In this document: positions 375 through 30,451 of the stretch, piece by piece
Numbering within the stretch: the first letter of the stretch is position 1
Layout: each line of letters opens with the position of its first letter
Source: Maylandia zebra
Taxonomy: Eukaryota; Chordata; Actinopteri; Cichliformes; Cichlidae
Reading direction: 5' to 3'
DNA: 64,000 bases
Assembly: GCF_041146795.1 (NCBI RefSeq)
Contig: NC_135170.1
Span: 6,722,033 to 6,786,032 of the forward strand
Notes under the pieces: generated by a model
What the model saw: the letters and a program-made list of their open reading frames with translations, nothing else
The model's database searches: none
What the model was told of the DNA's origin: nothing
Translations under genes and position numbers: made by a program

Positions 375-3300
375 CTGAAACACAAGTAAGGGAAAACAAT
401 GCAAATTTGTAATATGTATGAACATGTAAACAATGTGATGAATAATTATTTAATAATTGTGTGTCCTGGTGAGCACACACTTTGACTTTGGACGAGGATT
501 CCAGGCTGCTTGGTTGCTCGTGGTCTTCTGCACAGCAGCCACATCACTAATGGCAGCAGCAGGAGCAGCAGCAGGACTCCAACAGATACCGAGGACACCA
601 GCATCATCAAAGACACTAGGAAGAGAAAATTTGATCAGTTTATCCATAAAAACTACTTCTCATTTATGTTTCAGTCGAGAGCATGTAGTTTTCAGCCACA
701 TCGTATGTCATTCACACCAGTCTAGTTTCAAGAGTTTGGCTACAGAACACTATGCTCAGCAGGAGCAGATACACAGTCAACAGTCAACACTACACGCTCA
801 ACTTAAAAACCTACTTACTTACTAAAAGTAGTTGTAAAAATATGACAGCGTCCCCAGCACCAAAAGAAAGAAAGGCTAAATTAATTCAATTAGATGAAAC
901 CAGTAAAAAACATAAAATCATTTTCATCAATTTAATGTAAGCAGTTATTTACAAGTTTAAACAGTCTTAACAGACTGTCTCAAAACTTTACTGTGGTTCA
1001 CTAGTGATTACTGAGAATTCTGCTGATGACAGACAGTATAATGTCCAGACTGAGAGAAAGCTAAAACAGGAAAGATGGTTAAGAAAGTTTATTCTATTTT
1101 TATTCTATTGTATGCAGTATATTATTTGATTCTATTCTATTATGTACAGTATCTTATTCTTATCAATCATTTTATCCTATTCCAGTGTTTGTCTAATTTT
1201 TGCTATGAATAATAATCAAAGTGTTTTTATTGAGTTTTCAGAAAGCATACCATTCATACAGAAAAGCTCGAACTCAAGTCCTACCACACAGTGTAAGACA
1301 AAACTATACCCAGACAGAGGAAGGGAAAAAAAAAAGGGGGGGTGGGGGGGGGGGGGGGGGGGGGGGGGGGAGTTGCCAGTCATGGAGTGGACGGAAACTC
1401 ATCTTCAAAATAGGAAATGAAAGGCTGCCAGACCTTAAAGAATTTCTTGGTGTTGCCCTGTATAGTAAATCTGAGATGTTCTAATTTGAGGTGTGCCATC
1501 ACCTCCTCCACCCAGCGTTTATGGGATGGCGGTGTTGCCTTTATCCAGTTAAATAGAATCAATCTCCCAGCCAGCAATGAGGCGAATGCTATTGCCTTGC
1601 TCTGAGAGGCTGTTAGTTGAGTTTCCCTCGGTGCCACACCGAAGATGGATGTCAGAGGCATTGGTTCCATATCCTTATTAGAAATGAATGAGAATGTTCT
1701 AAAGATGTTAGCCCAAAAGTCTTTCAGCCTGGAACAAGACCAGAACATGTGGCATAAGTTGGCTGGCACCTGTTTACATCTGGGGCAGGTCGGATCGGCC
1801 CCCTGGTACATTCTTGCCAGTTTCTCCCTTGACAAATGGAGTAATTTTTGCTATGAAGTACACCCTAGCACAGGATTACTCTGAAAAGACTGATTACTGC
1901 ATTTGTTTTTGTTTTTTTTGGAAACTTCAGACTCATATCTTTCTGTTTCTATTCACGTTTGTTTCTATACTGGAACAGTCTCCTCCTTTACATCTGCTTC
2001 TTCTCTTTCTGGTTTTAAATGTAAACATTCAGAAATTAACAGAATGAACAGAGAAGCCTGAGAAATACAGATACACAGTGTGCACAGAAGATTTGTCACA
2101 GTGACATTTCTTATTATTTGTTTGTAATTAAAAAATAAAAAAGCATAAACTGTGTAATTTATGTATGTGTAAATACTGTACTTACTGTACTTAATGATGA
2201 CACTAATTGGTGCAATTACAGCAGATCTGAATGTCCGTGTGGACACTGTGACCTCATACACACAGCTGTAGTTGCCCTGCTGTTCATACTCAGCTACAGG
2301 GAAACTAAATGAGGCTGAGTTGTTGACTGCTGGCTCTGTGAGGTTGGAGCCAGAGAAGCTCAGAATAAAATGTCCACTGGAAAATGTGGAGTTAATGGAA
2401 CAGGTGAGGACAAAGCTGTAACCCCTGGTGATCTGTGCACCTTCAGGACCCCAGACAAGTCCTGCATTCGGAGACGTCAAGGAGATGCTGGGCCTCTGCA
2501 GTCTCACTGTGTAAAAGTGACATTGGGATTAAGGACGGAAGTCCAGCATTCACTCTTTTAGGCCTCAACTTAACATTTAGCTCTTTAGCTGCTAAATGCT
2601 CCACAGTGTGTAATAGTTTGTTTCCAGTAGTCTGTGTTTCGTCCTGAGTACTGTGGGCTTTGAGAGCATTTTGTCAGCCACCCAGAAATTTTATGAAAAA
2701 AGAGCTGCTGTTCTAAATACAAGAAAGAACTACTGCAGTATCCTCTTATAAGCATTGCTATTGATTATTTATGATCATACTTGTATTTGTTTTCTTACCT
2801 GTAACAGAGAGCCTAACAGAGTCACTTGTTGGGGAGTAAAATTGTTGACTTGGGCCGCTTTCCTGATACTGACACTGGTACAATCCCTCATCATCAAAGT
2901 CTACTTCAGGAATATTGAAGGTAGCAGAGTTTGTGTTTGAGTTTTGGGTCCTGTTGAATGAATCTGATGTTTTCATCAGAATGAACGTCCCACCTAAAGT
3001 TTGAGTTGAGATTGAACAAATGATTCCAATGTTCTGACCCCAGGTCACCTCACCAGCAGGACTGATGGAGATATTGGGTTTTGGAAAGATTACTGAAAAG
3101 AGACACACAACACCAGCACAATAATACATTTGTTGTAGCTCACTGAGCGCCCTACTTATAGAAAACAAATGAAACATGATGTTCAGGAAAGTGTATTTCT
3201 TCTTACCAGTAACAGAGATTCTGACAGAGTCACTGAGGGGGGAGCTGAATGTGTTACTTGAAATGCGTTTCTCATACTGACACTGGTACAGTCCATCATC

Positions 3301-17017: not shown

Positions 17018-18075
17018 GTCCATGTAGAAAAAGGAGTGATACACCTGCTGCCGTCAGACCTGCAGGTATCAGGCTGTGATGTTCTCCTTTATAGTGGACA
17101 GAATTATTTGGAGTGGCACAAATAATTTGTGTGGCATCTTATCGAATGCAGAACAGCTGATTGTTCTGTAAATAGTTTGAAATCAAGGTAAAAGGTAAAT
17201 GGATGCAAATAACTTTGTTGTTTGCAAAACTTGTGCATAGGATTTTAAAATTGACAATTTATATTTGCATTTAAAGTTATGAAATATGATTCATTAAACA
17301 TGTTTGTGGTTGTTACAGTATAAATATAACATTTTCTACTCTGATTGTATGTTTTTTTGTCTGATTTTACATCAATTGTGTTATTGCAGTATGACAAAAT
17401 GAAAACATAACTGTAAATTCAGTTACGTTGCGGAAAATTGACTGCAACTTCTATTTTATTTTAAAGAACTTTATTTAACAAACAACGAGTATACAACATA
17501 CAAACAGATGAAGTATACAAAAGAACAGAAAATGAACACACAAAATCAGCAGTAAAAAGAAAAAAGTAATAATTATACACGGAAAAATTCACATATACAT
17601 GTATTGTTTTGAGAGCCTTTTTGTTGGTGGAGTCTGATATTGATTGTACAATTCCACATCCTTAAACAAATGGCAGATATGGTGTTTTATTAGTAAACTT
17701 ATATTTATGGATAAAAAATTTAGCTAAAAGTATTAACAAATTTATTATAAAAAAACATTTATCATTCTCCGTGGGGAACTTAAAGAAACAGAATAAAACA
17801 TTTTCCCATCGTAAAGAAAACTCCCTTAAAATATGGACAATAACAAAACAGCTAAATTCCTTCCAGAATCTTTGTGTAGAAGAACAGTACCAAAAAAGAT
17901 GTGTCACGGTTTCTGGATGATCCCCACAGAAAGTACAATTAGTATTTATGTCTCATTTAAATTTTACCATGTAGTGACTGGCTGGATAACATTTATGTAG
18001 AAATTTAAATGAGACTTCTTTCACCTTATTTACAATCTACGGAAGAGGATTAGGGCCACTGGAAAAAAAAACAAA

Positions 18076-18585
18076 GAATTCTGACTTTAATCTCAGAATT
18101 CTGACTTTATTCTCAGAATTCTGACTTTTTTCTCAGAATTCTGACTTTAATCTCAGAATTCTGACTTTTTTCTCAGAATTCTGACTTTAATCTCAGAATT
18201 CTGACTTTTTTCTCAGAATTCTGACTTTAATCTCAGAATTCTGACTTTATTCTCAGAATTCTGACTTTAATCTCAGAATTCTGACTTTAATCTCAGAATT
18301 CTGACTTTATTCTCAGAATTCTGACTTTAATCTCAGAATTCTGACTTTATTCTCAGAATTCTGACTTTAATCTCAGAATTCTGACTTTATTCTCAGAATT
18401 CTGACTTTTTTTCTCAGAATTCTGACTTTAATCTCAGAATTCTGACTTTTTTCTCAGAATTCTGAGATTAAAGTCAGAATTCTGACTTTAATCTCAGAAT
18501 TCTGACTTTAATCTCAGAATTCTGACTTTTTTTCTCAGAATTCTGAGATTAAAGTCAGAATTCTGACTTTAATCTCAGAATTTTG
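18076..18585. repeat. 20-bp tandem array in left inverted repeat
   Basis: About 25 copies of a 20-bp unit GAATTCTGACTTTAATCTCA, varying mainly at the TTTAA, TTTAT or TTTTT position. Some units near the inner end (18460-18560) are inverted, forming local palindromes around GAATTC. Confidence 0.93.
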
Positions 18586-18663
18586 AGGTGGGCACCTGCA
18601 GGCTTCCAGCTTCAGTGACAGCGATGTGTCCAGTTTGGCAGGTGGAGAACTAATTCACTAAAT

Positions 18664-18738
18664 ATGGTGGATATAAGTGACTTTTTGCGTGGCCGAGGGG
18701 TCCCCGAAGATGCTATTTTATTAATGGAAGAGCAGAAG
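18664..18738 (+). CDS. SAM-domain exon 1 (left arm)
   Basis: Starts ATG and encodes 25 residues (MVDISDFLRGRGVPEDAI and a LLMEEQK end) before a GTGAGT donor, phase 0. It is the first helix region of a SAM-like domain. An identical copy starts the minus-strand gene at 28208. The start is chosen because it is the first ATG and is preserved in both arms. Confidence 0.7.
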
Positions 18739-20233
18739 GTGAGTAACAAAAAAGAGAAATAGTTTGGTGTCTCCTATTTTTACAGGAAAACAGTTACGGT
18801 ACAGTTACGGTTAGCTGTTAGCATGCTTGTTAGCTTATAATGTTATATAGGAATGAACGTGTTTCACGATGTTACAGTATACTAGGTGAATTGACGTTTT
18901 AACTGTTGTTGATCGCAGGATCATCCCAGATGGGTTCGTTGCATTTTATTTTATTGTTCTACTATTTCAGAGTTTTTCAAGGCAGTTAAGCGGAGCTGTG
19001 TTACAGATGCTAGCCGCCTGCCAATATCACTGATATATTTGATGTGTACAAGTAAGTTACACTTAGTACAGCGGAGGAGAGAAGCTGTAATGAATGTTTA
19101 TGCGGACATTTCACTCAGAAAAATGGGTGGCGTTCATACACAGCCACCGACACAGCCCCGGTTGTTGTTCTGACGGTGGCCGACTGACGATCCCCTCACA
19201 ACATGTTAGCTAACACAAACTAATGTTGTGCATGTAACTGTGTATACGTTAGTGGTACAGTGTCGGAAGAAATAAGCAAACTGTTAACTGTTTATAATGT
19301 CAGAATGACATCATCGTTCTCCTGCACTGTGTAATGTATGTCAGCTCAAGAAGGAAATCATATCTTATACTCTGAGCTGCCCAGTGCACTTAACGCCTAC
19401 GTGTGGAAATGGTAGGCTACACTACAGTTAACTACCGGTAAAAAATAAACTTAATACAGTATTTGATTTTTTTTTTATAGAACAATAAAATAAAAAGTGC
19501 TGGCTGAGGAGCGCTGCCGTGTTGAACTTTGACCTCGGAGTGACGTGACGTTTGTTCGCACAACCAATAGAAGTGCAGAAAGTCGCAAATCAGGCATATT
19601 GTTCGCATAAACACAAAAATAAATAAATAAATAACGAAATAATCCCGATATTGTGCCAAAGACTGATTTACAATGTTACTTTGTGTTCTATGTGTAATAC
19701 CTTTGCTTAAATGACTAAATGGACTGTGTATTTATGACTCTGCGTTATAGTCTTACATACATAAGTAACATTCATATGTACAGATAAAAATGTACAGAGA
19801 TATGTACACAAGCGTGTACACAAAAGTCTACTGCTGATCGAGCTGCTCAGTGGTCGTACAGTCTCATGCAGAGAGCGTGGAGGTGTTGTCCGTTGCCATT
19901 CCACCACTCCAGCAGACCACAACATAAAAGACAGCAGACGCCACCACAGTGTCGTAGAACATCCTTAGAAGACGTACTACCTACATCATAACCAATCAAG
20001 TCCTGCTTTTTTTTAAATACAGAAGAGGATTTATTATTTACTGAAAGGCTATGCCTTAGTTTGCTTCTTTCATTATTGTGTTTCGCCCTGCATAAAATAG
20101 ATAGCTTTTCTGATAACTACAGTCAATACTCTCCTACTGGCATTAGCAGTGACCTAAGAGGCTTAACCGTAATATTGCTTTGCAGTGTAAATGTTGCAGA
20201 AAATGACTGTCTTTTCTTTCTTCTTGTGTGCAG

Positions 20234-20392
20234 ATTGACTGTGACTTCATAGCACTGATGGATGACGCAACTTTGGCAAACTACATTCCCTCGTACGGAG
20301 ACCGAATTGCCGTCTTCAATTTCTGCAAAAGCAAGCAACCACTGTCAAAAAGAAAACTAGGACTTCTGCAAAAAGTTCACCTCTCAAAGTGA
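20234..20392 (+). CDS. SAM-domain exon 2 (left arm), ending at TGA
   Basis: After a TGTGTGCAG acceptor it continues the SAM domain: IDCDFIALMDDATLANYI, PSYGDRIAVFNFCKSKQ, then a basic tail. The frame closes at TGA 20390-20392, just where the transposase frame opens in another register. Joined to exon 1 it would give a SAM-only protein of about 77 residues. Alternatives are that a base was lost and SAM was fused to the transposase, or that the AAA|GTGAGA site at 20388/20389 is a donor skipping the transposase start. Confidence 0.55.
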   Translation: MDCDFIALMDDATLANYIPSYGDRIAVFNFCKSKQPLSKRKLGLLQKVHLSK

Positions 20393-20409
20393 GAGAAACA
20401 GTGGCTGAC

Positions 20410-22236
20410 ATGTCAGATTTGGATGACTTAATAAGACTGTATTTCAGACTTTCTTTCAGTAACAAAGAAATACTTTCAATTTTAGCACATAGTCATCATA
20501 CAATTATAAGTGTTCGAACTCTAAAGAGAATTTGTAAAAGACTTGGGCTTTTTAGAAGGAAGAATCAATCAAACTTGGAGGAAGTGCTAGCCTTTGTCCA
20601 ACAAGAGATCATGACAAATGGACAGATGCAAGGTTATCGTTGGCTACATCTACGTGCAATTCAACATGGATTTGTGGTGTCACAAGATACTGTAAGATGC
20701 ATAATCAAATTGCTTGACCCTCAAGGTGTGGAACTGAGACGAGCTCGACGGTTGAGAAGACGACAGTACAGCTGCAGAGGGCCAAATGCTCTCTGGCACA
20801 TGGATGGCTATGACAAGTTGAAACCATATGGTATTGCTCTCAGTGGCTGCATAGATGGTTTTAGCCGCTATGTTTTATGGATGGAGGCTTATACTACAAA
20901 CAGTGACCCTAAATTGATTGCAAGTTATTTTCTGAAAACAGTTTCATGCATCAGCGGATGTCCAGAAAGGTTACGTGCTGACCGAGGCACCGAAAATGGT
21001 TGTGTCGAACAAATGCAGATGTTTTTACGGAGAAACCACACAGACAGTTTTGCAGGTGAGAAAAGTTTCCTTTACGGAAGAAGTACGGCCAACCAACGTA
21101 TAGAAGGATGGTGGGCTACCCTACGCAAACAGAGTGCACAATTTTGGATGAACTTATTTCAAACTTTTCAGGATGATGGCCACTTCACAGGGGATTTTTT
21201 GGACAAAAGTCTTATCCAATTCTGCTTTCTCAATCTTATTCAGGTAAAAGCATGTGCTCATGCTATGTAATGTCTTAGCTGCATAAATAGAAAATATAAA
21301 TATGGTTAGAACATTTTTTTTCTTTAAATTAAATATGAATTTTATTTCCATTTTAATATGTCTTGATGCATGCTCAATCAGCCAGGTAAGGAATGTTTTT
21401 TGACAGAACATTTCTCACACTGAAAACACTACATCCAGATGAACAGAATCAACTTTTTGGGATTCCATTTTAATACTTTGATGGAATTGTATTCATGTTA
21501 TCAGTGGAAGTAACTGCACCTTTCTCAGCACAGGTGCATGGAGCATTTTTTTTTTATTGCCACATGGTTTAAATTACTATGGAGTCTGTTACCTAGTGGT
21601 CCTTTGGGCACGGTTTCAGAAAGCAATCCTATCATTTGGTTAATTCTCTATTGAAAATATATTGTAGAATCATTGCACACTGAGTATAAAGTGTTGGGCT
21701 ATCTATTCAACAGCAGAATCATGCAGCACCATTCTGTGTCCATGTGCTGTTTAGTGAAAGTGCTCTTTTGTTGTTGCTGCTTGGTTTTACATTAATTAGA
21801 GGTCAGTTTCTATGTCTGTTGATTAATGAGTTAATAAGCCTCAACTTTGGCTAAATCTACTGGTACATGGTCTGTTTCATATACCGGTACTTATATTGTG
21901 TTGTTTTTCATGTAGGATGAACTTGATGAAGTTGTGAACACATGGAACTCGCACAAAATCCGGCCAAGTGGTAGTGCAGCATCGGGTCGACCAGTAGTAA
22001 TGTACTCATTTCCAGAGCTGCACAGTGCTGAGGATAGACTGAAGCCTATTTCTATGGAGGATATTACTTTGTGTATGGAAGAGTGTAGCCCAAAAGGTCA
22101 ACACCCCTGTGATGAAACAGTCTTTGAACTGTGTTGTCTGCTTATGGTAGAAAATGAATGGGATGCCCCAGGAGATCCACTTGGTGCTGCGGATCTGTAT
22201 ATTAGGTTAAGAGAAGAAATACTGCAAAGTATTTAA
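20410..22236 (+). CDS. DDE integrase-type transposase (two exons)
   Basis: Coding parts 20410-21243 and 21916-22236, joined by GTAAAA and TGTAG splice sites in phase 0, give about 384 residues. The N-terminal part is helix-rich and DNA-binding-like (NKEILSILAHSHH, RTLKRICKRLGLFRRK). The integrase core has ALWHMDGYDKLKPYG (D132), LRADRGTENG (D191) and NQRIEGWW (E232), a D-D-E triad. The end reads CDETVFELCCLLM. It should cut and join transposon ends in the nucleus. No stop or frameshift lies within these exons. The frame remains open upstream to a GTG at 20389, but ATG 20410 is the first methionine. AATAAA lies 25 bases past the stop. Confidence 0.85.
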
Positions 22237-22260
22237 GGAACTTCAGTGTGTAAATGTACA

Positions 22261-22266
22261 AATAAA
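22261..22266 (+). terminator. Polyadenylation signal of transposase gene
   Basis: AATAAA 24 bases after the TAA stop at 22234-22236. Confidence 0.5.
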
Positions 22267-24760
22267 TACAAAATATTTCTCTTTATCTTGATAACGTGAT
22301 TTGATAGTAGGTGCCATGTCTTACAGGTACCTTTTATGCAGGTATTTCTGCACTGCATTAAATGAAAGACATCTTTTAGGTGTGACCGAACATGCCATTT
22401 TTCAGGTCATTCTCTCAGAATATTGCTGTTTATTTCTGCTGTAATGTAAATTCAGAGTGCTGATAGGAGGTCAGCACCAACTAGTATCATTTTATGTTGA
22501 TCATAGTAATAAATACAGTTTGGTTGGTATCTTCCCCCCCCCCCCCCCCCATTTGATTGTTTTTCTACATTCACACTACCATTAAACAGAAATGTTTATA
22601 TATTACTTGAAAAAGCTGAATATTGTGATATTATCAATCAGTTATGAAACACATGTCAATCCTTTTAAAAGGCCATACATTAAACTGCATTTACAAATGT
22701 TATATTTTTGATTGAATCATAAGTGGTGTAAACCTGCCTACCAGTAAATTGCAATATAAATTTTTGTGTTTTGTTGCCAGACATGTGCATAGTATATAAA
22801 ATATAAACTGACCAGCTCCCTGCTCATTGTTTTCTGTATCAACCTTTACTCTTAATATTCATGGCTGGAAACCCAGGCACCAGCATATGATATGCTAAGT
22901 GCCCGGGTTATCTGTGGTATGTTTCAGCAAACCATAGTAGCATTAACAATTCTAGGTCTTGACAACAGCATGTTTCTATAAACGTATCATTGTTAATATT
23001 TAAAGTCGTTATGCCTTTTGGGGAGCTTTTAGTGCAATTATATTAAAGCAAAGCTATTATAATCATTTACCCATATGAAGGTCCATCACTTAATTATTAA
23101 TGTATTTCACTTCTGTTAGTTGTAAGATATTTTAGCTGGTTTTCATGTAAAATGACCATGAATCATTGCTATACTGATTCAGTGTTAGCTGTTGTATACA
23201 AGGCTCCTTCATGATATGAATCCTAAAATTATAAGAAACATACCAAAAATATTTTGACTTTTATTTGTAGTATCCCAGCAACAATGCAACAAAACAGTTC
23301 CTGCAAGTGGAACCAAGTTATTGTCCCATTAAGTGCAACATGTTTTACATTTATATTTGTGTATCTTTATGAAATGTTTGAAATTAAAAATAAATGGTAT
23401 TCTTCCATGTTACTGAGCTCATGTGTGGCAGTCTCTTGAATTCTGGCATGTTCAAATAGATATGGAGTTTGATGAACATATTCAAAACAACAATACAAAT
23501 GTACTGTGTACAGTAACATTTTATTGGAAAAAGTTTACAAGAAACCTGTTCTTTCCAATGCCAATAACATGGCTAAAACTCATAACCGTATAAGCTGCCC
23601 TGTAACAAGAATGACTCAACTTTTAAAACAAACTTATAGATCTCATACAGTCTTGTTATGCATCAGTATACATTAGTGACTTACTGTAAAGACCATGAAC
23701 ACTGGCTATTGTGGTATCACATATTCCTTCAGTGTCATCTATGGTATAGAAATAAAAACAAGTGTGAATGACTGAGAACATACATGCATACAAATAAAAA
23801 TGCATAATTTCTGGCAGTAACAAGACATTTTTTCAGGTGTTAAGATTAATACTATATCTGAGAACATGACAATTTGGCATTACAAAAGGATGCCTGAATA
23901 ATCACAGTACTTGACCACTGCACTGAAGTGTACAGTGTTTATTTATGATCTCAGTAATCAATAACCATCTTCAAAACAGACTGAATCCTTTAAGCAGCTT
24001 GAATCAATTTGATGGATGAATAACAGGTATGCTTAGAAACAATATGGCATTAAGAAAATACTGGAATTTTAAAAAATATTTTCACCAACTTTATATGGAA
24101 CCTTTGTAATCAACAACAAATGCCAAACTTTGATACCTTAACCTACCTTAACTAAAAATTGCATATACTGTAAAGCAAAATGTTTTCAGACATGACAAAT
24201 GCTAAAGTATAAAATTGTACTTATTCCTTTTACAATACAGTGTTGCATAACAGCATTACTTTTACGTTATAACTATGTTCAGTTTTAGCCCTGACCTAAT
24301 AAGAAAATACCATCTGAATGAATTAGTCTTTCTACTAATTACTTACAAAAGTATTTGACTGTGCTGAGCTCTCACACCACACATGGTGCTTTAAAGAACG
24401 TTTAAGAGCAGTTTAATTATAGTTTATAGATCTTAAGTAATCTTTCTTCATGCTTTTGCTGAAGGTTTCTGTCTTACAGCTGGAAAGCTTGGATTTGGTG
24501 AAGACAGCTCTGGATATGGTAGTAAACAGTGTACCTGTTCGTTTTGTTTTGTGACTGTATTATGTAAAACTCAAAATGATAAAAGAAAATGAAATATTAG
24601 CCAAAACTAGACTTCTAACAGAGATGAGAAACTTCTCTCTAATTAAAAAAAGTATACTGTATAAGTTCAAAATACATAAAAATACATATTCCTAACATCT
24701 CTTTACAGTTATGCTCTAGTGTGCATGAGCAGTTCAAATGTAGCGCTTTGCTGTGAGAGT
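22267..24760. other. Noncoding middle of the 10.8-kb transposon
   Basis: The 2.5-kb AT-rich gap between the two convergent genes, with a C-run at 22532-22549. It has no supported coding frame and probably holds their 3' ends. Confidence 0.55.
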
Positions 24761-27700
24761 CTAAACAATGTCCATCACCCAGATATTACTTTCAAGAACT
24801 GCATTAAATTCAGAACAAAAATCTGGGAAGTTTTCATAGCTGTTAGCTAGCTGCAGAACATTCCCACACGTGCGTCCGACTGGTCTTCTTGTAAACTCTG
24901 TCATATCTTGAAATTCCACATAAATACTGTTTGTTACTATAAGGTCAGATCCGGTGCAGAAACACATAAATTTCTGAAGTTTAATGTTATCCAGCTCTCT
25001 GATGAATCTTTTGAGATGATTTTTCACTTCTTTTTATTGTGGAGTCAAATCCACAGCAAATTTCAGCAGCTGGCACACTTTTTTTGAAGTTGGTTGCAGT
25101 TCAGAGAATAACTTGGTCAGTCCCTCCGGACTGAGGGAGATATGGGAGTCGATGATCTCCCTCCAGCAGTCAATAACAAACAATGGTTTTTGGACAAGCT
25201 CTTTGTGTGCTATTTCATCAAGGATTGTAGGAAGAGTCTCAGCAGTGATTCTTTTTCTACAGCCATAACTGTCAAGAACTTCCACAAGATCATCCAAGTC
25301 AACTGCAGAGAAATCTTTTACTGCTTCCATCAAAACATCACATTCTTGGCTGCTGACAAACTGTAGAAAGTGTGCTTTAAGATCACTGTAAACACCACTG
25401 AAAAGCACTTGTTCCAGAAAAGGGATTGCAAGTTTATTTGGAAAATACTGACATTCTTGGTAACCTTTCAGGAGTATTCGCCCAACTGCCTTCCATTTTT
25501 CAGCAGGAAAATCATGGCGAATGAATGGCACTTTAACGGTTGCACCTAGGGTGCATCGCTCATAAAATTCATGCCAGAAGCATGTGAGTACATCTCTTAG
25601 TATTCCTGATCCAGTGCCTGGTTCTTCTGTGTTGTCTGGAAGTATGCGCTTCACATTCAGTGTTTTGGTCAAAATCTCCTCATCAGAGAAAGCAGTAATC
25701 ATGTCATGTAAAGTGTCAGTATGACGTATGGTGATTGTTATTATGTTCTCTGAATTAGGTGGACTGAGGGGTACAAGAAAACCCTCATAGACTAATGTGT
25801 CTTCTGTATCTTTTTCAGCATCAAAAATTGGACCAAAAGTAATTTCTGGATCATCTAAAATTTCTGAACCAGCGATGACTTCATCAAAATTACCCCTGAC
25901 TTCCCCCACTTGCAATGGATTAATATCACTGCCACTGCTTTCTGAGACAAACACCACTTCAGATGTCTCGCTGGCATCTTCTTCAGGATCTTTTGGTTTT
26001 GTTGCAATGTAGAAGCGTAACATTGTCAGTCTCGCTGCCTCATACATATTGCCAATAGACTGGCAGGTATCATCAGTAAGGTGGTTCTGTTTAAAGTCCC
26101 AAACCTCAAACTCAAAATCTGTTTCACATCCCTTAGGAGATATGCCATTAGGAAAAAAAAAGTTTCTTTCCTTCCTGAAGAATATCTTTTAATCCAGCAT
26201 CAGTGGCCATTTGAATTTTTCTAGTGCCACCTCCCTGCTTCGCTCTCACCTGTTTGGCTATTTTTCCATCACAATGTATCCATCCTATCTCAACATTGCG
26301 TGTTGCTTTTTGCTTCTTTGTCTGTCTTATTCCTGCATCTGTATGTGAAGTGTTCTCCTTTGGACTTTCTTTTCTGGTTTTCATTTTCTCACGAAGTTTT
26401 TGCAGAAGTCCTAGTTTTCTTTTTGACAGTGGTTGCTTGCTTTTGCAGAAATTGAAGACGGCAATTCGGTCTCCGTACGAGGGAATGTAGTTTGCCAAAG
26501 TTGCGTCATCCATCAGCGCTATGACATCACAGTCAATCTGCACACAGGAAGAAAGAAAAGACAGTCATTTTCTGCAACATTTACACTGCAAAGCAATATT
26601 ACAGTTAAGCCTCTTAGGTCACCGCTAATGCCAGTAGGAGAGTATTGACTGTAGTTATCAGAAAAGCTATCTATTTTATGCAGGGCGAAACACAATAATG
26701 AAAGAAGCAAACTAAGGCATAGCCTTTCAGTAAATAATAAATCCTCTTCTGTATTTAAAAAAAAGCAGGACTTGATTGGTTATGATGTAGGTAGTACGTC
26801 TTCTAAGGATGTTCTACGACACTGCTGTCTTTTATGTTGTGGTCTGCTGGAGTGGTGGAATGGCAGAGAGGGACAGGGGGAAACTTAACAAACTGGTCGG
26901 GAGGGCCAGCTTTAGCGGTCTGCTAAAGTCCACTGAGCAGACTGGGGAGGAGAGGATGTTGTCTAAGCTAACATCCACCATGGACAACACCTCCACGCTC
27001 TCTGCATGAGACTGTACGACCACTGAGCAGCTCGATCAGCAGTAGACTTTTGTGTACACGCTTGTGTACATATCTCTGTACATTTTTATCTGTACATATG
27101 AATGTTACTTATGTATGTAAGACTATAACGCAGAGTCATAAATACACAGTCCATTTAGTCATTTAAGCAAAGGTATTACACATAGAACACAAAGTAACAT
27201 TGTAAATCAGTCTTTGGCACAATATCGGGATTATTTCGTTATTTATTTATTTATTTTTGTGTTTATGCGAACAATATGCCTGATTTGCGACTTTCTGCAC
27301 TTCTATTGGTTGTGCGAACAAACGTCACGTCACTCCGAGGTCAAAGTTCAACACGGCAGCGCTCCTCAGCCAGCACTTTTTATTTTATTGTTCTATAAAA
27401 AAAAATCAAATACTGTATTAAGTTTATTTTTTACCGGTAGTTAACTGTAGTGTAGCCTACCATTTCCACACGTAGGCGTTAAGTGCACTGGGCAGCTCAG
27501 AGTATAAGATATGATTTCCTTCTTGAGCTGACATACATTACACAGTGCAGGAGAACGATGATGTCATTCTGACATTATAAACAGTTAACAGTTTGCTTAT
27601 TTCTTCCGACACTGTACCACTAACGTATACACAGTTACATGCACAACATTAGTTTGTGTTAGCTAACATGTTGTGAGGGGATCGTCAGTCGGCCACCGTC

Positions 27701-28208
27701 AGAACAACAACCGGGGCTGTGTCGGTGGCTGTGTATGAACGCCACCCATTTTTCTGAGTGAAATATCCGCATAAACATTCATTACAGCTTCTCTCCTCCG
27801 CTGTACTAAGTGTAACTTACTTGTACACATCAAATATATCAGTGATATTGGCAGGCGGCTAGCATCTGTAACACAGCTCTGCTTAACTGCCTTGAAAAAC
27901 TCTGAAATAGTAGAACAATAAAATAAAATGCAACGAACCCATCTGGGATGATCCTGCGATCAACAACAGTTAAAACGTCAATTCACCTAGTATACTGTAA
28001 CATCGTGAAACACGTTCATTCCTATATAACATTATAAGCTAACAAGCATGCTAACAGCTAACCGTAACTGTACCGTAACTGTTTTCCTGTAAAAATAGGA
28101 GACACCAAACTATTTCTCTTTTTTGTTACTCACCTTCTGCTCTTCCATTAATAAAATAGCATCTTCGGGGACCCCTCGGCCACGCAAAAAGTCACTTATA
28201 TCCACCAT
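24761..28208 (-). pseudogene. SAM-HECT E3 ubiquitin-ligase-like gene of the transposon, two lesions
   Basis: Exon 1 (28208-28134) and a long exon 2 (26537-24761) encode SAM halves, a basic linker (REKMKTRKESPKENTSHTD) and then a HECT-like region. Recognisable parts are FGPIFDAEKD, SGILRDVLTCFWHEFYERC, VPFIRHDFPAEKW, an N-lobe helix set and a C-lobe ending VGRTCGNVLQLANSYENF. The RTCGN cysteine (codon 24868-24866) sits where HECT enzymes carry the ubiquitin-accepting cysteine. Such proteins are often labelled G2E3-like in fish. A nine-T run (A9 at 26153-26161) shifts the frame to an early stop at 26148, and TAA at 25036-25034 interrupts the C-lobe in frame. Either could be a real mutation; the homopolymer one could be a sequencing error. 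Confidence 0.75.
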
Positions 28209-28833
28209 ATTTAGTGAATTAGTTCTCCACCTGCCAAACTGGACACATCGCTGTCACTGAAGCTGGAAGCCTGCAGGTGCCCACCTCAAAATTCTGAGAT
28301 TAAAGTCAGAATTCTGACTTTAATCTCAGAATTCTGAGAAAAAAGTCAGAATTCTGAGATTAAAGTCAGAATTCTGAGAAAAAAAGTCAGAATTCTGAGA
28401 TTAAAGTCAGAATTCTGAGAAAAAAAGTCAGAATTCTGAGAATAAAGTCAGAATTCTGAGATTAAAGTCAGAATTCTGAGAATAAAGTCAGAATTCTGAG
28501 AAAAAAGTCAGAATTCTGAGATTAAAGTCAGAATTCTGAGATTAAAGTCAGAATTCTGAGAAAAAAGTCAGAATTCTGAGATTAAAGTCAGAATTCTGAG
28601 AAAAAAGTCAGAATTCTGAGATTAAAGTCAGAATTCTGAGAAAAAAGTCAGAATTCTGAGATTAAAGTCAGAATTCTGAGAAAAAAGTCAGAATTCTGAG
28701 ATTAAAGTCAGAATTCTGAGAAAAAAGTCAGAATTCTGAGAATAAAGTCAGAATTCTGACTTTAATCTCAGAATTCTGAGAATAAAGTCAGAATTCTTTT
28801 TTTTTTTTCCAGTGGCCCTAATCCTCTTCCATA
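26397..28833 (-). repeat. Right long terminal inverted repeat (about 2.44 kb)
   Basis: Inverse copy of 18038-20374 with the same order from the tip: tandem array, promoter-like zone, SAM exon 1 (28208-28134), intron, and SAM exon 2 from 26537. It keeps a 117-bp segment (26865-26981) missing in the left arm. That segment and its right flank read like the end of a LINE protein (RGKLNKLVGRASFS, SKLTSTMDNTS). Confidence 0.88.
28289..28796. repeat. 20-bp tandem array in right inverted repeat
   Basis: Mirror array of TGAGATTAAAGTCAGAATTC units, with AATAAAG and AAAAAAG variants. The order of variants is not an exact mirror of the left array, so the two arrays have evolved copy number separately. 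One inverted unit pair occurs near 28750-28780. Confidence 0.92.
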
Positions 28834-28848
28834 ACAATCAAATATTTA

Positions 28849-30451
28849 CAGTGGGGCAAAAAAGTATTTAGTCAGCCACCGATTGTGCAAGTTCCCCCAC
28901 TTAAAATGATGACAGAGGTCAGTAATTTGTACCAGAGGTACACTTCAACTGTGAGAGACAGAATGTGAAAAAAAAATCCATGAATTCACATGGTAGGATT
29001 TGTAAAGAATTTATTTGTAAATTAGGGTGGAAAATAAGTATTTGGTCACCTAAAACAAGGAAAATCTCTGGCTCTCACAGACCTGTAACGTCTTCTGTAA
29101 GAAGCTTTTCTGTCCCCCACTCGTTACCTGTATGAATGGCACCTGTTTGAACCCATCATCTGTATAAAAGACACCTGTCCACAGCCTCAAACAGTCAGAC
29201 TCCAAACTCCGCCATGGCCAAGACCAAAGAGCTTTCGAAGGACACCAGGAAAAGTATTGTAGACCTGCACCAGACTGGGAAGAGTGAATCTACAATAGGC
29301 AAGCAGCTTGGTGTGAAAAAATCAACTGTGGGAGCAATCATCAGAAAATGGAAGACATACAAGACCACTGATAATCTCCCTGGATCTGGGGCTCCACGCA
29401 AGATCTCATCCCGTGGGGTCAAAATGATCATGAGAACGGTGAGCAAAGATCCCAGAACCACACGGGGGGACCTGGTGAATGACCTGCAGAGAGCTGGGAC
29501 CAAAGTAACAAAGGTCACCATCAGTAACACACTACAACGGCAGGGAATCAAATCCCGCAGTGCCAGACGTGTTCCGCTGCTGAAGCCAGTGCATGTCCAG
29601 GCCCGTCTGAAGTTTGCCAGAGAGCACATGGATGATACAGCAGAGGATTGGGAGAATGTCATGTGGTCAGATGAAACCAAAGTAGAACTTTTTGGTATAA
29701 ACTGAACTCGTCGTGTTTGGAGGAAGAAGAATACTGAGTTGCATCCCAAGAACACCATACTTACTGTGAAGCATGGGGGTGGAAACATCATGCTATGGGG
29801 CTGTTTTTCTGCCAAGGGGACAGGACGACTGATCCGTGTTAAGGACAGAATGAATGGGGCCATGTATCGTGAGATTTTGAGCCAAAACCTCCTTCCATCA
29901 GTGAGAACTTTGAAGATGAAACGAGGCTGGGTCTTCCAACATGACAATGATCCAAAACACACCGCCCGGGCAACAAAGGAGTGGCTCCGTAAGAAGCATT
30001 TGAAAGTCCTGGAGTGGCCTAGCCAGTCTCCAGACCTCAACCCCATAGAAAATCTGTGGCGGGAGTTGAAAGTCCGTGTTGCTCGGCGACAGCCCCAAAA
30101 CATCACTGCTCTCGAGAAGATCTGCATGGAGGAATGGGCCAAAATACCAGCTACTGTGTGTGCAAACCTGGTAAAGACCTATAGTAAACGTTTGACCTCT
30201 GTTATTGCCAACAAAGGTTATGTTACAAAGTATTGAGTTGTATTTTTGTTATTGACCAAATACTTATTTTCCACCCTAATTTACGAATAAATTCTTTACA
30301 AATCCTACCATGTGAATTCATGGATTTTTTTTCACATTCTGTCTCTCACAGTTGAAGTGTACCTCTGGTGCAAATTACTGACCTCTGTCATCATTTTAAG
30401 TGGGGGAACTTGCACAATCGGTGGCTGACTAAATACTTTTTTGCCCCACTG
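28849..30451 (+). mobile_element. Tc1-like transposon
   Basis: Inverted ends CAGTGGGGCAAAAAAGTATT are present at both sides, flanked by TA. The shared sequence continues for well over 100 bp through the region around TCAGCCACCGATTGTGCAAG. It holds one transposase gene and is inserted in the L1-like LINE, 15 bases from the right tip of the 10.8-kb element. Confidence 0.93.
29214..30236 (+). pseudogene. Tc1-like transposase with one internal stop
   Basis: A 340-codon frame beginning [20 protein letters not shown]. It has paired helix-turn-helix DNA-binding regions in the first 110 residues and the DDE core: D153 (MWSDETKV), D244 ([10 protein letters not shown]) and E279 (NPIENLW). The last two are 34 residues apart, the Tc1 DD34E spacing. 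Codon 164 (29703-29705) is TGA, in frame with everything after it. A single nonsense change therefore inactivates an otherwise complete cut-and-paste transposase. Confidence 0.92.

Follow-up and report, generated by a model that had tools for sequence, protein, structure and literature searches.

Introduction

Two convergent genes are present in transposons of the RAG1-RAG2 type (ProtoRAG), in which a RING ubiquitin-ligase activity resides in RAG1. Ubiquitin ligases of the G2E3/HECT type carry the C-terminal C-lobe motifs TGS and HTCG. Two reports describe IS3EU transposons as having TA..TA-type ends and a 6-bp target duplication (PMC10045372, PMC12730594). The second report describes fungal IS3EU elements with an alpha-kinase gene opposite in orientation to the transposase, and with additional genes including one for a TET/JBP dioxygenase (PMC12730594).

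In the window, that is, the whole stretch of 64,000 nucleotides of Maylandia zebra DNA analysed, a 10.8-kb element was found that shares with the IS3EU (IS3EU/GingerRoot) superfamily the TAYGG..CCRTA ends, the 6-bp duplication and an integrase-core DDE transposase. It differs in an added convergent gene, which encodes a SAM-like and a HECT-like domain (SAM-HECT), and in the inverted repeats of its family, which are about 2.3 kb long and bear exons. Two convergent genes, a DDE recombinase and, as predicted here, a ubiquitin-ligase activity within the system are also features of ProtoRAG; the transposases are unrelated, however, and in ProtoRAG the ligase forms part of the recombinase, as a RING, whereas here it is a separate HECT protein. 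The SAM-HECT protein has the C-terminal C-lobe motifs of G2E3/HECT-type E3 ligases, but its N-terminus is SAM-like, its middle region is distinct, and its Pfam score is near or below the cut-off. With the fungal IS3EU elements carrying TET/JBP or alpha-kinase genes it has in common an extra enzyme gene opposite the transposase; the hosts of those elements are fungi and their extras are alpha-kinase and TET/JBP dioxygenase, whereas here the extra is a HECT ligase (PMC12730594). A HECT partner of an IS3EU transposase was not found in the literature searched for IS3EU with HECT or ubiquitin ligase, a search that lay outside the Repbase entries, where the pairing may be recorded. Opposite-strand accessory genes as such are already known in fungal IS3EU elements (PMC12730594).

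Limits of the Element and Its Copies in the Genome

The features of the element are listed in Table 1. The limits of the arms (about 18038-20374 and 26397-28833) were placed by hand. A 20-bp unit repeated about 25 times stands just inside each end of the element, and beyond it the arm continues as about 1.8 kb of unique sequence. In the window copy these two inner parts are near-identical: 1775 aligned bases contain 9 mismatches, and there are four indels. The initial annotation had correctly recognised long inverted arms, but its span, 18586-28288, left out the terminal tandem repeats and the true ends.

Table 1. Coordinates of the element and of its two genes in the window.
Feature	Position	Strand	Remarks
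Transposon	18038-28833		10.8 kb; ends TACGG... and ...CCATA
Left target site duplication	18032..18037		ACAATC, 6 bp; matches 28834-28839
Right target site duplication	28834..28839		ACAATC
Left terminal inverted arm	18038..20374	+	begins TACGGAAGAGG
Right terminal inverted arm	26397..28833	-	ends ...CCATA
Terminal tandem repeats	left 18075-18586; right 28286-28797		20-bp unit
Unique inner arm, left	18586-20374	+	
Left copy of SAM-HECT exon 1	18664..18738	+	25 codons
Left copy of SAM part of exon 2	20234..20392	+	with exon 1 forms a 77-codon ORF; TGA 20390-20392
Possible cryptic intron	20389..20459	+	donor GTGAGA; acceptors ending 20447 or 20459
Transposase exon 1	20410..21243	+	278 codons; rva_4/rve integrase core; D132, D191, E232 invariant
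Transposase exon 2	21916..22236	+	106 codons plus stop
SAM-HECT exon 2	24761..26537	-	interrupted in the window copy; HECT C-lobe with conserved Cys at 3' end
SAM-HECT exon 1, right	28134..28208	-	

When the arm was used as a query against the same genome, 29 matches were obtained, among them ten further full-length pairs. All counts over 11 copies refer to the window copy and these ten; four loci that match one arm or part of it (L019-L022, at C3:3.13M, C9:31.7M, C14 and C5:2.58M) are outside these counts. The termini TAYGG..CCRTA were present in 11/11 copies, and so were target duplications, of 6 bp in ten copies and of 7 bp in one. As a control, flanks were mismatched among the ten further copies, and none of the 90 pairs gave a duplication. 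The element fits an IS3EU-type DNA transposon, a predicted assignment based on its ends, its duplications and its integrase core rather than on a tree with IS3EU reference proteins. Near the right end of the element, at 29151-30236 of the window, there is a Tc1/Sleeping-Beauty-type transposase ORF (HTH_SB, HTH_Tnp_Tc3_2, DDE_3) with one in-frame stop.

The 11 copies are 98-100% alike. The family has probably moved recently, since the aligned bases of four copies (L009-L012) show 99.99-100% identity. The frame of transposase exon 1 is uninterrupted in 8/11 copies, and the other three (L014, L015 and L016), whose HECT frames are open, have a common frameshift yet different target duplications, so they were probably mobilised in trans.

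The expectation that the arms stay homogenised was borne out. Left and right arms differed on average by 4.6 events within a copy, versus 15.7 when arms were re-paired among copies, and none of 10,000 re-pairing permutations gave a value as low as 4.6. Differences between left and right arms ranged from 0 to 13 events within copies and reached 49 between copies (six copies tabulated). In L014 the two arms disagree at an 11-base indel at which the arms of the other copies agree and which marks groups of copies; it is a possible trace of arm exchange or of recombination between elements.

Transposase

The integrase core was recognised by PF24764 (rva_4) with an E-value of 1.9e-27, far over the cut-off, and by rve with an E-value of 7e-5, below its cut-off. 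The three acidic residues given in Table 1 are invariant across four families in the transposase alignment. In the window the transposase starts 2,372 bp from the element end.

No relative was found in viral contigs scanned with the transposase and two alignments. The scan of genome contigs gave one match, L051 (CAIWFK010000811.1, positions 1107-3080), a 657-aa frame with an rva_4 core that is 33% identical to the window transposase. The 3.9-kb contig that carries it is labelled as belonging to a Myxococcales metagenome bin; the frame could come from a bacterial relative or from eukaryotic sequence within the bin, and it was left out of the family comparisons. Sequence searches of the PDB gave nothing useful for the single proteins or for the SAM and transposase profiles.

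SAM-HECT Gene

The product of exons 1 and 2 on the minus strand is 616 aa long, or 601 aa where 45 nt have been deleted. Nine of the 11 copies keep exon 2 uninterrupted. Of the other two, L013 has a stop in the SAM part, and in the window copy the frame is shifted within a T-run near 26155 and meets an in-frame stop at about 25034. These two defects rule out a functional HECT gene for the window copy, not for the family.

PF00632 (HECT) matched at E ≤ 0.01 in 5/5 proteins from four families (best 4.9e-7), and the match covers the C-terminal part only. Against a cut-off of 23.9, the bit scores were 21.7 for L009, 23.9 for L018 and 24.7 for family F1. A HECT profile matched UBE3C weakly in the PDB (E 0.035). 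The catalytic-type cysteine C557 and its flanking motif are invariant across the families aligned; together with a dN/dS of 0.31 in HECT between L009 and L018, a value derived from only 13 synonymous and 15 nonsynonymous differences, this suggests purifying selection on the HECT domain. The evidence for the SAM domain is suggestive only, with a SAM_3 match in one of four family members (E 0.00098) and a best SAM_1 E-value of 0.19. The SAM sequence of the window gave no Pfam match, and a search of the PDB by sequence returned no chain named SAM domain.

Mirrored Exons in the Two Arms

As had been proposed, the same ATG exon and the start of the SAM-like exon 2 are mirrored in the two arms, and both exons were found in both arms of 11/11 copies. 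Exon 1 is identical in the left and right arms (MVDISDFLRGRGVPEDAILLMEEQK; donor AAG/GTGAGT), and exon 2 starts at 20234 on the plus strand and at 26537 on the minus strand, preceded in both cases by a pyrimidine-rich acceptor. In 11/11 copies the ATG of the left exon 1 is preceded by A at -3 and followed by G at +4, and the 77-codon SAM-only ORF of the left arm is open. The first 72 residues of this ORF are those of SAM-HECT; left and right SAM sequences differ by single residues in the window and in L018, and in L013 by a left change and a right stop.

Within intron 1 of both arms there is a block (19501-19598 and 27275-27372) in a CpG-rich stretch of 200 bases; CpG observed/expected was 1.36 in the 200 bases from 19486. 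The block contains what we take to be a CCAAT box and a TGACGTGACG motif, and may be an internal promoter.

Related Loci and Families

At least 89 matches to SAM-HECT exon 2 and at least 140 to the transposase were found in the genome. For the pairing count 53 of the 89 SAM-HECT matches were used, those dropped being other pieces of the same loci and SAM pieces of left arms; two of the 53 represent one locus, which leaves 52 loci. On the transposase side 77 of the 140 were used, those dropped being mostly weaker matches. Among the matches listed, a transposase lies within 15 kb at 34/52 SAM-HECT loci, 11 of them of the window family, and the two genes are convergent in 34/34. The claim that this transposon ties a HECT-like ligase to a DDE transposase is upheld. 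At the other 18 loci none of the listed transposases comes within 15 kb. A divergent transposase fragment lies about 15.3 kb from C22:19796207, just past this limit, and a convergent transposase about 17 kb from C9:6045030.

Five loci of other families were examined: F1 (L043), F2 (L044), F3 (L045), F4 (L046+L047) and F6 (L050). F1 and F6 are the same family, so that the five loci represent four families. SAM was not found on the transposase side at any of the five, only on the HECT side, in a scan with matches at E<0.1 from which weak, scattered, non-SAM-like ones were set aside. The initial annotation had named related autonomous copies whose arms lack SAM exons as evidence against its model; such evidence was largely obtained at these five loci. 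F3 and F4 could in principle have lost SAM from that side.

TA..TA termini and 6-bp duplications were mapped for F1, F2 and F6, and in these three the element end and the transposase start are 244-301 bp apart. F3 begins with TACGG on the HECT side and is truncated at its transposase-side end. In F4 neither the element ends nor exon 1 were found, and the HECT frames are split further. F1-F3 have an exon 1 whose following intron, as judged by inspection, interrupts the SAM-like domain at the same point, and their transposase frames break at a place equivalent to that in the window. Their ligases are 34-39% and their transposases 49-53% identical to those of the window family.

A decayed relative, F5 (L048+L049), is about 80% identical and was left out of the count of SAM absence. 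The arm extension may be older than the window family and partly lost in F5, since the transposase side of F5 keeps a 98-bp arm block (about 81% identity, corresponding to 19501-19598) and the last bases of the arm.

Two further finds have none of the listed transposases within 15 kb. Eight similar SAM-HECT-like fragments with open frames of 296-336 aa extend over 1.1 Mb at G000:C3:6376638-7505776, each matching query residues 257/258-516 at about 45% identity; this cluster is possibly an amplified or domesticated derivative. At G000:C8:2677735-2679558 there is a near full-length relative of SAM-HECT, 36% identical over query residues 1-582, with an open frame of 624 aa and one TGA in the match.

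Origin and Possible Role of the Mirrored Arms

We consider it probable that the two convergent genes are the standing equipment of this lineage, and that the mirrored 5' end of SAM-HECT is a derived extension of the inverted repeats. The mirrored arm is best read as derived because SAM was found on the transposase side only in the window family, and goes with HECT in all families read. The standing layout would consist of the DDE transposase and, convergent with it, a putative ubiquitin ligase with SAM-like and HECT-like parts. After this layout was established, the first 1.8 kb or so of the SAM-HECT gene, comprising the 5' region, exon 1, intron 1 and the SAM part of exon 2, would have been copied, inverted, from the HECT side to the transposase end, so that the terminal inverted repeats became longer. 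The transposase would now have directly ahead of it a second 5' region of SAM-HECT, from which it may be transcribed, and arm-to-arm gene conversion or recopying would have kept the arms alike. Regulation common to the transposase and SAM-HECT is plausible. The transposase presumably starts at its own ATG, by way of a downstream start site, reinitiation or leaky scanning, and the left SAM ORF would be a by-product, whether as untranslated leader, upstream ORF or small SAM protein. The HECT protein, for its part, may benefit the element by attaching ubiquitin, in the course of transposition, to a protein of the host or of the element.

The initial annotation had proposed instead that the SAM exons are spliced onto the transposase, giving it an N-terminus shared with the HECT ligase and allowing the two to co-assemble through SAM-SAM contacts. 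Just past the SAM sequence there is indeed a donor, AAA/GTGAGA, at 20389, followed by the two acceptors of Table 1, all identical in 11/11 copies, and with either acceptor an open frame of SAM and transposase exon 1 results, of 342 or 338 residues. This agreement weighs little in copies that are so alike; the intron would measure just 59 or 71 nt, and its use would delete the first 13 or 17 residues of the transposase, including I8, Y11 and F12, which are invariant in four families. With the intron retained, the SAM frame ends at the TGA in 11/11 copies, and the transposase ATG follows 17 nt on, so that a SAM-only ORF of 77 codons comes first and the transposase after it, with no fusion. At the five loci of other families SAM was found on the HECT side alone, and the decayed F5 keeps the donor but neither acceptor AG. 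Direct splicing of exon 1 (phase 0) to the acceptors at 20447 and 20459 was also followed by hand, and runs into a stop in both cases. A SAM-transposase fusion as the main product was rejected because of the TGA and the loss of conserved residues. The shared N-terminus did not hold up, nor did the proposed co-assembly, the transposase frame not being joined to SAM; the model as a whole is highly improbable. It is decidedly unlikely, too, that the function of the left arm is to produce a 77-aa SAM-only protein that caps or competes with SAM-HECT, or an upstream ORF that limits translation of the transposase. The ATG context, the open ORF and its near-identity with the start of SAM-HECT are what such a regulator would show, but the arms are homogenised, so that conservation of the left ORF is inseparable from that of the right, and no such copy is seen at the five loci of other families.

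That the HECT gene might be passive cargo captured from the host, with no role in transposition, we regard as unlikely. The 18 loci with no listed transposase nearby, the C3 cluster for example, are consistent with it; the movement of L014-L016 with a broken transposase and an open HECT frame is neutral on the role. Against it stand the convergent pairing over families whose transposases are no closer to that of the window than stated above, the common position of the SAM intron in F1-F3, the invariant catalytic-type cysteine in ligases so divergent, and the low dN/dS within the family. Returning to the reading of two standing genes with a derived extension, a bolder version would make the SAM-HECT ligase the regular second subunit of the lineage; the mirror-duplicated oligomerisation domain of the window family would then yield a free SAM protein that tunes assembly of the ligase, and so transposition, from the very promoter sequence that drives the transposase. 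This version is very unlikely.

Significance

The conserved pairing of HECT with IS3EU is the surprise of this locus, and is of more interest than the mirroring of the SAM exons, apparently a secondary extension of the inverted repeats. A report on fish describes unclassified repeats with G2E3 among their blastx matches (PMC5638112); the element may account for some of the HECT/G2E3-like gene copies in fish annotations. The extension points to growth of inverted repeats through copying of the 5' end of a gene, by which one gene may gain the promoter of another. Retention of the ligase as the convergent partner of the transposase across families suggests that these elements act on the protein-turnover machinery of the host, and in the window family, which looks young from its four nearly identical copies, the role of the ligase is open to testing.
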